From Beroe ovata (lineage: Eukaryota > Ctenophora > Nuda > Beroida > Beroidae), in assembly GCA_946803715.1 (NCBI GenBank), contig CAMPET010000271.1:22660-86659 (forward strand): a stretch of 64,000 nt of DNA, written 5' to 3'. The notes below the pieces were generated by a model. The model did not search any database, was not told the origin of the DNA, and was given only the letters and a program-made list of their open reading frames with translations. This document shows positions 4,090-64,000 of this stretch, one piece after another (positions within the stretch are counted from its first letter, which is position 1; each line of letters begins with the position of its first letter). Both the position numbers and the translations under genes were made by a program.

Positions 4090-4097
4090 CATTTTCT

Positions 4098-5221
4098 GGT
4101 AAAAGGGTCATAAGATTTGTAATTGTGTCCATTGTGTCCAATAAGAAAATGTCTAATGCACGTGTAATGCACGTCCATTGGACGTCCATTAGACACTCCA
4201 CTCAATGTGAAAATTTGGTTTTTTGTTCCATTGTGCACCAGTGGACACAATGGACGCAATTTCGATGCATTTTCGATGTCTAATGGACATGTTCAATGGA
4301 CACAATGGACATCGCTCTTGTGCATCTGGGTGGACACATTGGACACATCTACAAATCCTCCCTTGTTGATGGACATCAAACTGGTATTTTAGTCTAATGG
4401 ACACAATGGACAAATATTGACCAATAAACACAATGGACACAGTGTGTGCAATGAACACGTCCATTGGACACACGAAATTCATTGGACACAGCATGTCCAC
4501 TAGACATAATTTGCCCATTAGACAAAACATGCCCATTGGACACGCAAATGTCCATTGGACACCATTTCCACTGGTCACAATATGACCATTGGACGAAATA
4601 TGTCCATTAAGATCAAAATTTTCATTGGACATAATATTTCTATGGGAAATCCTAACCGTTACCCTAACCCAATAGACGTATTGTGTCCAATGGACATGCT
4701 GTGTACAATAAACGTATTGTGCATAATAGACATAGGTTTTATTGTGTGCAGTGGACGACGACGTCATGTGAACAATTGACATAATGTGTTCAGTGGACAC
4801 GATGAATCCAATAGAAACGATGTATCAAGTGCGTCCAATGTACATGTGTATTGGACACACTGTGTCCACTGTGTCCATTGGTCAATACTTGTCCATTGTG
4901 TCCATGGGACTGAATTACCATTTTGATGTCCATCAACAAGGCCGGATTTGTAAGTGTGTCCATTGTGTCCACCCAGATGCACAAGATCGATCTCCTTTGT
5001 GTCCATTGAACATGTCCATTGAACATCGAAAATGAACAAATTGTGTCCATTGGTGTTCAATGGACAAAAATACCAAATATTTTATATTCATGATGAGTGG
5101 AGTGTCTAATGGACGTCCGTCGTCCAATGGACGTCCATTAGACGTGCATTTAACGTGCATTAGACATTTTCTTATTGATGGACACAGTGGACACAATTAC
5201 AAATCTTATGACCCTTTTGCC
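4098..5221. mobile_element. Foldback transposon of 1124 bp with GTCCATTG minisatellite arms
   Basis: The two ends are long inverted repeats. The left end begins GGTAAAAGGGTCATAAGATT; the reverse complement of the right end begins GGCAAAAGGGTCATAAGATT. Homology continues for roughly 300 bp inward on each side, including matching blocks near 4365-4395 and 4908-4940. The arms and centre are built from degenerate copies of GTCCATTG / CAATGGAC / GGACACAATG. Perfect 8-bp direct repeats CATTTTCT flank it at 4090-4097 and 5222-5229. No transposase is encoded; long open frames inside are by-products of the repeat. GG termini with 8-bp duplications recall Merlin-type elements, but this assignment is tentative. 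Confidence 0.85.
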
Positions 5222-5229
5222 CATTTTCT

Positions 5230-27671: not shown

Positions 27672-27770
27672 GGGGCAGGACTGTAGGTCGGGGGACTGTA
27701 GGTCGGCGGACTGTAGGTCGGCAGCAGGACTCTAGGTCGGGAGCAGTACTCTAGGTCGGGAGCTAAGCTA
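27672..27770 (+). repeat. GGACTGTAGGTCGG minisatellite, locus 1
   Basis: Alternating GGACTGTAGGTCGGCAGC and GGACTCTAGGTCGGGAGC units, ending GGGAGCTAAGCTAATGAG. The same two unit types in the same order, ending GGGAGCTACGCTAATAAG, recur at 30612-30712. Confidence 0.8.
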
Positions 27771-30611: not shown

Positions 30612-30712
30612 CCGACTGTAGGTCGGGAGATTTCCACAGGGTGGACTCTAGGTCGGGGGACTGTAGGTCGGCAGCAGCAAACCAGAACTCTAGGTCGGGA
30701 GCTACGCTAATA
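30612..30712 (+). repeat. GGACTGTAGGTCGG minisatellite, locus 2
   Basis: Shorter and more interrupted relative of 27672-27770, 2.9 kb away, including the shared 3' unique tail. This suggests both are copies of one mobile or dispersed repeat rather than independent slippage arrays. Confidence 0.75.
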
Positions 30713-61002: not shown

Positions 61003-63123
61003 TTAATTCAAATTTATACCTTTCTTCTTCGCTATGAAAGGGTTTTCTAGAAGATACTTATTAATCTTTTCCTTGTTGTTCAAGTAATTAGGTCCCTCTA
61101 TCCTATCAATGATTAACTTAGATACTTCCCAATAGTTACGGTCAGAACATTCTTTACTTTGACTCTTGAAAATGTCTAAATTAGATTCAAATGCGTTGAC
61201 ATTCTCTGAGTTTTTTACATAAACTGGCAATTTGTTCCAATAATTCCTTATCCGTTCTGGAAGGAATTTTGATCTCAAATCACAAATACCCTTGTTACTA
61301 TTAAGACCTTTGGCTAAAATATTTAGACCGGACCTGCTCAATTGAAACAGGTCCTTTCCATAATTAACTTTACCTTGAACAATTTTGAATGTCTCTATGA
61401 GGTCACCACGAATACGTCGCTCCCCTAAAGTAGTAAGCTTCAATATTTCCAGCCGCTTGCTATATGGTAACATGCCAATGCCATCACACAAACGAGTAAA
61501 ACGACGCTGAATAGACTCCAGCTGTAAGATCATTGACCAATTACCGTGACAAGCTACTGGATTCCAGACATTAACACAATATTCGAGCTTAGGTCGGATA
61601 ATACTTTTATAGATTTTATTAAGAATAACAGGGTCTCTTTCTATTATATTTCTGGATATCCAACCTATAGTTCTATTTGCAGCTCTCAGACAGGAATATA
61701 TATTCTGATTCCAATCCAAGTCAGAATTTACTATGATCCCTAGATCTTTCTCTTCAATTTCAGAACCAAGTAATTTCCCATCTAAGAAATAGTCATTATG
61801 GAGATTTCCATTATAATTTAAGTGCATAACCTTGCACTTCTCTGTATTAAATCTTAAAAGCCATTTTGACTCCCAATGCTCTAGTGCATTCAAGTCATCC
61901 AATATGCCAGTCTTATTACTAGCATCAGCAATAAGCTTCAGATCATCAGCAAATAATTTAGTTATATTTTTTATGGTCTCTGGAAGATCATTAATGAACA
62001 ACACAAATAGTAAGGGCCCTAGGACAGAACCCTGAGGTACCCCTGACAATACTTTTCTTAGTGAAGAGTAACTTCCTCGCACACTTGTCCTAATGGATCT
62101 ATCAGTAAGAAAATCTCTAATAATGCTAAGAGTATTACCCTTGATGCCATAATTTTCTAACTTGGTCAGGAGCCTGTAGTGTGGAACGGTGTCGAAAGCT
62201 TTCCAAAAATCTAGATAGAAAATGTCTACAGGACATCCCGACTCAAGCATTGCTATTGCAGCATCAACAGTTTCTAATAAATTTGATACACATGATTTTC
62301 CATCAACGAAACCGTGCTGATTTACAACAATTCTATTGCCAACATATTCCAATAAATGCTTCCGAATTAACTTTTCATAGATTTTACTCAAAACACAAGT
62401 TAAAGACACTGGTCTGTAGTTTAGTGCTTCTAGCTTAGAATCCTTCTTATGTAGGGAGACAACATTAGCCAGTTTCCATAATTTGGGAATACCTTCATCT
62501 TTAGTGCACTTTGAATAGAAAGCAGTGAGATATTTAACAAAGTCAGGGTTATCTGCAAGAGACTTGAGTAATTTGGGATGAATGTTATCGGGACCGAAAC
62601 TTTTAAATATATTAATTGATTTAAGTTCCTTGTAAACATCAGCTTCAGTCACCTCAATATTACCTATCAACTCATCACAATCCTTATAACAATCCTGAGG
62701 CAAGGGGCCGGATGGTTCATTCACAAAGACAGAACTAAACGCATTAACAAGACACTCTGCAGTGTCACTATCATTCTCAGTCAGAGTGCCATCATCTTGC
62801 CTCAGAAAAGTCACCATTGATTTAACATTACGCCTATTTCTCAGATAAGAATAAAAAGCCTTGGAATTATGCTTAAGATCATTAGTTATCAATTTCTCAT
62901 ACTTCCTTTTTGATTTGGTCTCAACACTTTTCACATCATTCTGCTTAGATATTGCATAACTAAAGTTTTCATTAGTTGGATTAGCATCAAATGCGGCCCA
63001 GGCCAGGCTCTTGGCTTTTATAGCACGCTTTAAGCTGGAATTTATCCATGGCATGTTATAATTATCAGTTTTTGCCTCACTTAGAGGGGCCATAGGGGTT
63101 ACCTTGTCAGTAATTTTGAGCAA
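61003..63123 (-). mobile_element. Non-LTR retrotransposon (LINE) pol, 5'-truncated
   Basis: An open frame of 706 codons encoding the reverse transcriptase of a Jockey/CR1-like LINE. Landmarks: NYRPVSLTCVLSKIYEK (about 235), QHGFVDGKSCVSNLLE, FYLDFWKAFDTVPH (about 302-315; Trp-Lys where most relatives have Ser-Lys), SGVPQGSVLGPLLFVLFIND, and the catalytic FADD at about 391-394. The C-terminal domain IYKSIIRPKLEYCVNVWNP is typical of this clade. The apurinic endonuclease normally upstream is absent because the frame runs into the N at 63130. The long undamaged frame suggests recent activity. Whether a full element exists beyond the join is unknown. Confidence 0.93.
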
Positions 63124-63130
63124 CTTGCCN

Positions 63131-64000
63131 TATACACTGCAGTACTCTCAGAACTTGGGAGTCACGGTACGTCGAGACTTGGCCCCCATCCCGGTCGCGT
63201 ACGGCTTGGTTTGGGCTCGAGAGATATTGATGTCAGGAGGAGTGGCGTCAAGCGAAATTGATGTCAATTGTCAAGAGGGACTGATGTCGAAAGAGACTGT
63301 TATCTAGAGGAACTGCTGACTAAAGCTGTAGTGTCGAGTGAAAGTGTGCCAAGCAAAAATGACGTCAAGAAATAGTGGTGTTAAGAGATTACAGAGGATG
63401 GTGCCATGGAAGATGTCGACAAAAAAGGCCGTAAACTGTCATTGACCATGTTAAGTGAGAGTAATGTCAAAAAGTTTGTACATACCGACGGATGCAATCG
63501 TGTTCATCTCTGACTTCTCTCATTTTATTTCGAAGTGTAGACTTGAGTAGTATAACGAAGTTTAGGTATCACTCTGGCCGAAAGCACTTGCATGTCTTGC
63601 TGTTGTCATTTTCCCGAACGCACGATTCGCGTGTGCGTGTGTTTGTGCGTGATTCCATGCTCATTAGATGTAATGATCATTGATCATCGATATTGAAATT
63701 TGAAACGTTTCAAAACAAATAAACAACGAAATGAAGCGCATCCATACGCGCGCATTTAATTCGCACGTGCAACTCTTGAATCGCATAGCAACGGCGTAAA
63801 ATGCAAATTTCTGCTACACTATTTATTGATTTTTGCATCTTTTCTCAAAACTTCCGACGCCGATAACAAAAAATCTAAGGCCTAAATCAAAAATCCGAAA
63901 TGATTATCACGAGCGGAATCCTTTTTTCTACCACCTTGCAAAAAATCCCGGCTCTCCAACTCCATTTGGTCGAGTTATTTGCAAACAGCGGAACCGATTT
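63131..64000. other. Right edge, no gene seen
   Basis: Sequence after the single N at 63130 has no LINE similarity, so the N may join unrelated contigs. It contains a degenerate TGATGTCAA(G/T) repeat at 63225-63470. No exon supported. Confidence 0.4.

Follow-up and report, generated by a model that had tools for sequence, protein, structure and literature searches.

The window analysed here, a stretch of 64,000 nucleotides (64 kb) from the ctenophore Beroe ovata, contains a mobile insertion of 1,124 bp (positions 4098-5221) that has its ends in common with other copies in the genome and is flanked by an 8-bp duplication. We consider it probable that this element is a non-autonomous foldback DNA transposon of MULE type, in the style of Phantom and Tm1, which is a kind of element that is already known. 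For the family as a whole, named here after its repeated word GTCCATTG, we infer a MULE-like superfamily by analogy rather than proven membership.

The limits of the element are exact. Its inverted arms have the ends GGYAAAAGGGTCATAAGATTTGTAA, with GGTAAAAGGGTC starting at the left boundary (4098) and GGCAAAAGGGTC at the right boundary (5221) when read in the inverse direction, and a perfect 8-bp duplication, CATTTTCT, flanks it at 4090-4097 and 5222-5229. The coordinates, the GG ends and the flanking duplication are as given in a preliminary description of this DNA. The features are as follows.

4090..4097, no strand: left target site duplication CATTTTCT (8 bp, sequence read)
4098..4122, + strand: left terminal repeat GGTAAAAGGGTCATAAGATTTGTAA (25-bp end; 97 genome matches at up to 3 mismatches, reversed control 0)
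4098..4482, + strand: left foldback arm, with GTCCATTG words in both orientations
4483..4819, no strand: middle between the longest matched arms, with word repeats at 18-bp spacing
4820..5221, - strand: right arm, an inverted copy of the left arm
5197..5221, - strand: right terminal repeat, inverted reading GGCAAAAGGGTCATAAGATTTGTAA (end comparison)
5222..5229, no strand: right target site duplication CATTTTCT (8 bp, sequence read)

Three pairs of stretches account for the match between the arms, namely 4098-4147 with 5172-5221 (90% complementary), 4139-4194 with 5122-5177 (91%) and 4268-4482 with 4820-5034 (87%). As a single strand, the element is predicted to fold into one hairpin running nearly from end to end, with an energy of -388.5 kcal/mol (a raw value without a shuffle baseline). 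The element thus has the long inverted arms with internal tandem repeats of a foldback, and it carries no transposase of its own. The earlier view of this structure as unusual for a transposable element was overstated, since tandem-repeat arms define foldback elements, Tm1 being an example in the accessible part of PMC3169594.

The repeated word is confined to the element within the window. All 18 matches to GTCCATTG lie inside it, 10 on the + strand and 8 on the - strand, which bears out the proposal of a minisatellite present in both orientations; 2.98 matches were expected by chance, and 18 were reached in none of 100 shuffles. The exact word GGACACAATGGAC occurs three times in the element, as does its reverse complement, and neither was found in the window outside the element. 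The half-sites GTCCA and TGGAC occur 22 and 27 times in the element (54 and 46 times beyond it in the same window), and the dyad GTCCAWTGGAC is found at five places in the element and at none in the remaining window. The half-site GTCCA looks like the elementary unit of the arms, and a unit with GTCCA/TGGAC symmetry accounts in part for the presence of the minisatellite on both strands.

At the genome level, the 15-mer GTGTCCATTGTGTCC gave 307 matches with at most one mismatch, compared to 9 for the reversed control. Among the 100 of these matches that were listed, all of them exact, 88 sit within 1.4 kb of a listed family end, and 6 of the remaining 12 places (on C88, C140 and C193) adjoin weaker ends with 4-6 mismatches. 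Because the listed word places cluster near family ends, the word looks like a part of the element rather than a general satellite present there by chance.

Other features were recorded in the same window. Its minisatellites amount to 73 rows, and those in the stretches at 20.9-25.0 and 27.4-31.2 kb were found to have no long inverted arms. Words like GGACTCTAGGTCGGG, always on the + strand, form one array at 27678-27760 and another at 30613-30699 (9 matches at up to 2 mismatches, 0.03 expected); by eye, these words resemble the arm unit of L088, a transposase locus described below. A 714-aa open frame at 61003-63147 reads, also by eye, like a non-LTR reverse transcriptase.

The genome search for the terminus that had been proposed as a check returned 97 matches to the 25-bp end at up to 3 mismatches (77.8 Mb, 534 contigs) and none to the reversed pattern; blast with the whole element gave at least 120 matches. 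Viral contigs searched for the family end gave 0 exact matches. The 97 ends form 25 inward pairs of less than 20 kb, 24 of which are no longer than 1.65 kb. The remaining pair, on C47, spans 12.7 kb with nearer partner ends between, and lies outside the coding check.

Within the fetched loci, 23 paired copies with both ends were identified, spanning 134-1,322 bp. An 8-bp duplication is present in 13 of them (8 exact, 5 with one mismatch), whereas exchanging left and right flanks between copies gave 3 pairings out of 506 with at most one mismatch, one of these exact. Duplications of 9-12 bp were found in none of the 23 copies, and each length from 5 to 7 bp gave at most one exact case. Since L036 and L060 share one target, 12 of the 13 duplications are independent. 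Each locus contributes a single pair to these counts; L017 has two right ends, of which the outer was used (the inner has no duplication), and for L014 the nearer of two was taken. Six loci that overlap others (L007, L008, L018, L019, L020 and L022) were excluded before counting, as were two pairs of L034 and one of L065 with a very weak end. The start of L021 was shifted by one base, and the ends of L017 and L021 were picked with the duplication in view; without both, the count is 11 of 21. Altogether, the copies vary in length while their ends agree and target duplications occur, as in an FB-type family, and the other copies agree with the initial reading of the window element as the product of transposition with an 8-bp duplication, belonging to a non-coding family. 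The duplication length falls in the 8-11-bp range of MULEs, and, in combination with the terminal 5'-GG, it also matches the 8-9 bp of Merlin elements.

The preliminary description had named copies lacking the GG...CC boundaries or the duplication as evidence against it, and this applies in part, as 10 of the 23 copies have no readable duplication (L004, L005, L006, L009, L012, L014, L023, L024, L053 and L057) and 13 have one. Two of the ten have a visible reason. L014 (C57:284424-285408) has no duplication because 41 bp of target are gone beside its intact left end, as seen against an empty paralog located downstream within the same locus. L009 (C73:102924-104030) has none because the copy sits inside a palindrome; its flanks match each other inversely at 395 of 400 bases and its own arms are 97% alike. 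This palindrome reflects either an inverted duplication with the foldback at its centre or an artefact of the assembly. A second empty paralog, that of L017 on C437, has the 8-bp site once, with two differences (read by eye). Both empty paralogs support insertion. At another locus, L063 (C163:28900-31090), an insert with GGCACGTAGCCAG.../...CTACGTGCC ends was seen by eye in family sequence, and L062 has about 500 bp of this insert and the outer flank in common with it.

Two subfamilies can be distinguished by their ends. In subfamily B (end TGTAG; TGTAT in L017), the arms are 94-99% identical within seven of eight copies (90% in L035) and 92-99% alike when compared with the best arm of another copy. 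In subfamily A (end TGTAA), the two arms of one copy are 85-91% alike, compared to 88-95% for an arm and its best match in another copy; A arms are thus mostly further apart within copies than between them, which fits divergence of the arms before the copies spread. Subfamily B is the younger of the two. Comparison of arms within and between copies gave no sign of within-copy homogenisation. L021, with arms 78% alike within the copy and a left arm 97% like B, looks like a recombinant, and the B copies L027, L032 and L035 have in common an alternative central spacer of about 147 bp (94-96% alike). The conservation of half-site columns was 0.940 in subfamily A, compared to 0.936 for other columns, and 0.945 in subfamily B, compared to 0.903 elsewhere, the latter being confounded by the variable centre. 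Words and spacers therefore do not differ clearly in conservation, and selection on putative binding sites was not seen in this comparison (A negative, B confounded).

A DDE transposase gene with the same ends, the second check that had been proposed, was not found among the family loci by tblastn. The search for a transposase-coding copy with GGYAAAAGGGTC ends covered 91 loci with 33 MULE, one Merlin and one hAT queries, and the best 100 of 107 matches to a 16-bp end were compared by eye in search of an autonomous copy. Beyond the transposase loci themselves (L026, L044-L046 and L087-L091), the only tblastn match was at L004 (C3:610174-610546), where MULE/FLYWCH-like pieces lie about 430 bp to the left of the family copy and outside it. 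MULE fragments were seen beside family loci at L026 and L004 only. At L026, the family fragment was considered as an arm of the adjacent MULE and rejected, as its outer side faces the MULE. Many other ends have no visible partner, and a duplication-guided search at loci of this type gave three candidates (L003, L039 and L069); their second ends are unlike the family, with 14-19 mismatches in 25, and were discarded.

The same genome harbors coding elements with a comparable architecture. The MULE domain search gave 7 matches, and the proteins of two elements, C117 and L088, each retrieved 21 MULE pieces as queries. The C117 element (L087, C117:87874-90829) is 2,956 bp long, and its frame of 542 aa encodes both a FLYWCH (E 1e-8) and a MULE (E 1.2e-10) domain. 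Its inverted arms of 62 nt are 97% complementary and consist of 15-bp CGGAATCCCGAACTA repeats, with the inverse word within the same arm, and its duplication reads GCTGAAAT (8 bp) or, alternatively, GCTGAAATGA (10 bp). Among ENA sequences, relatives of its transposase reach 65% identity. A second copy, enlarged to 7,881 bp (L089, C343:55541-63421), encodes a protein 98% identical to that of C117 over 491 residues and has the exact 8-bp duplication ATATGTAA. The ends of both are asymmetric, one starting 5'-GGTATACC and the other 5'-GATTCACC (also written GGTATACCCCC and GATTCACCCCC). Two derivatives with C117-type ends and both arms, at C288:21826-22941 (1,116 bp) and C3:944379-945685 (1,307 bp), are about the size of the window element, and searches with the C117 and L088 proteins gave no MULE match at either. 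The exact 8-bp duplication is present at two of these four C117-type sites (C117 and C343); at C288 the flanks are a GT repeat in which a duplication is not readable, and at C3 they mismatch, with one base being N.

L088 has arms of 140 nt, 98% complementary and made of GGACTCTACGGCGGA repeats, which enclose two separate frames carrying the FLYWCH and MULE domains; its left outer end is N. The five MULE loci that were fetched include two with arms on both sides, a third completed outside its stretch and two with a one-sided word array. The third is L089, where a repeat scan of the fetched stretch gave no arms, the right arm lying inside and the left arm beyond the stretch. L026 and L090 each have a word array on one side of the MULE frame, compared to both sides in L088. 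These one-sided arrays could be a coincidence, because minisatellites abound in the genome, as their number in the window alone indicates.

The assignment to MULEs follows from this combination. A 5'-GG, an 8-bp duplication, word-built arms and transposase-less members come together here in a FLYWCH+MULE family, and they were not found together at the loci examined for Merlin (three) and hAT (one), which favors a MULE over Merlin or hAT. The step is an indirect one, because the search gave no coding copy bounded by the family's own ends, and these ends resemble those of C117 (by eye) in the first GG only. A MULE transposase between terminal repeats is present in the separate C117 family and was not found between the ends of the GTCCATTG family.

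The preliminary description had suggested a Merlin-like family, in which an IS1595-like transposase would recognise the GG ends and make the 8-bp duplication. The ends and the duplication length are compatible with this suggestion, as the accessible part of PMC8101967 gives Merlin elements a terminal 5'-GG, duplications of 8 or 9 bp and repeats of 24-462 bp. Additionally, the genome has a Merlin-type transposase domain over the Pfam cut-off at three places, one with an open 326-aa frame, and 10 Merlin tblastn matches altogether. However, the loci fetched for three of the matched places (L044-L046) have no inward pair of family ends, and no IS1595-type transposase lies between such ends there (the right side of L044 is cut by the contig end). 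The sequence GGNAAAAGGGTC, at up to 2 mismatches in 12, occurs once in L044, inside the frame, once in L045 and not in L046. L044 has no inverted repeats of at least 14 nt, although its contig continues for only about 95 bp past the frame. In L045 there are 11 inverted pairs, including one of 61 nt (463-523/1795-1855) whose right member overlaps the transposase relic instead of bracketing it, and none of the three pairs in L046 closely brackets the relic with words. Family loci gave no Merlin match by tblastn, in an uneven comparison of one Merlin query with 33 MULE queries. With such ends lacking at the three Merlin loci and the architecture shared by MULEs, we regard a Merlin-type family as unlikely.

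A hAT or P-superfamily (Galileo-like) foldback family appears less likely still. Duplications of 8 bp are possible for hAT and P elements, hAT ends start with CAG or TAG, and the ends of the present family lack such a start. According to the available text of PMC3688188, the arms of the P-superfamily element Galileo are foldback-like, and these arms hold additional transposase-binding sites as told in part of PMC4079207. The P-type RNase H domain gave no match in the genome, and the control genomes gave none either. The hAT dimerisation domain was found at four places, none of them within 20 kb of any of the 97 ends by coordinates; one (C18) is 10.9 kb from a weak 16-bp end match. The locus with the longest hAT frame (L091, 807 aa; the one fetched of the four) has four inverted pairs of 14-18 nt and no long arms, and just two tandem repeats of about two copies each.

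An origin without transposition, through expansion of a minisatellite in the genome and palindrome formation via strand switching, would fit word arrays of variable size in two orientations and the palindrome at C73, but is highly improbable against the sharp common ends, the duplications (13/23 compared to 3/506 when swapped), the empty sites and the clustering of the listed word matches near ends (88 of 100); the duplications refute it for the family, and a single odd locus could arise in that way.

Under the preferred reading of the window element as a MULE-type foldback, a DDE transposase encoded elsewhere in the genome would recognise the GGYAAAAGGGTC ends and probably also the GTCCA/TGGAC words of both arms. 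Acting in trans, it would excise the element and insert it with an 8-bp staggered cut. This transposase would most likely belong to the MULE superfamily, have a FLYWCH zinc finger and be encoded by elements with word-built foldback arms, so that the GTCCATTG family would be mobilised by a MULE transposase. The words are putative extra transposase-binding sites, by analogy with the Galileo arms as described in part of PMC4079207. As a tentative extension, it is possible, if rather doubtful, that the FLYWCH-MULE lineage of this genome has family-specific, often near-palindromic arm words that serve as dispersed sites for FLYWCH dimers, word and finger co-diversifying. Candidate words are GTCCAWTGGAC in the window family, CGGAATCCCG at C117 and others at L026, L088 and L090; if the suggestion were true, these would provide a ready-made series of finger-target pairs. 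Under the same tentative reading, hairpin arms of this type may also favor palindromic duplications like that at C73.

These observations suggest that a gene-less foldback family can be assigned by comparing its architecture with that of coding elements elsewhere in its genome. The terminal GG and the duplication length alone are insufficient for this, as Merlin and MULE elements overlap in both. MULE loci with differing arm words in one genome also offer a direct test of the arms as binding sites.

Foldback arms of short repeats are likewise present in TU of the sea urchin (8-bp duplications) and FB of Drosophila (9-bp duplications), to which the window family is likened by description and not by sequence comparison. 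Foldbacks of both hosts are mentioned in the accessible part of PMC4079207, which also describes Tetris of Drosophila virilis as a non-autonomous foldback with tandem repeats in its arms and 8-10-bp duplications. As with the present family, Tetris has no autonomous partner reported there and was assigned to Mutator by inference; its repeats are about 220 bp long, in contrast to the short words seen here. Merlin elements resemble the window family in the terminal GG and the 8-bp duplication, and word-built foldback arms are not among the features stated in the available portion of PMC8101967. Phantom MULEs, as covered in part of PMC6446971, have a FLYWCH+MULE transposase, 8-10-bp duplications (8-11 bp for MULEs in general) and repeats of 18-613 bp, and in aphids the transposase ORF is followed by a minisatellite. 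The FLYWCH and MULE pair is carried by C117, a putative member of this clade by its domains, and by L088, whereas the window element is non-coding and lacks a transposase.

A description of the GTCCATTG family was not found in the literature, which was matched by words and not by sequences held in Repbase or Dfam, and the earlier suggestion that the family is undescribed holds within that scope. The closest published kind is Tm1 of Meloidogyne, a Mutator/Foldback family with FLYWCH and MULE domains, 13-15-bp tandem repeats in its arms and 8-10-bp duplications in 45 of 53 cases, according to the accessible text of PMC3169594. In the same source, the duplication of Tm1 is mostly 9 bp, compared to 8 bp here. 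The GTCCATTG family also differs in its terminal sequence, in that no coding member was found and in having its word in both orientations within each arm, where it can form a dyad. Tm1 includes a single coding member, which has both the FLYWCH and the MULE domain, and its outer motifs are asymmetric like those of the C117 element; as in the window family, foldback arms of short tandem repeats are combined with a non-coding member of about 1 kb and MITE-like members (PMC3169594, in part).
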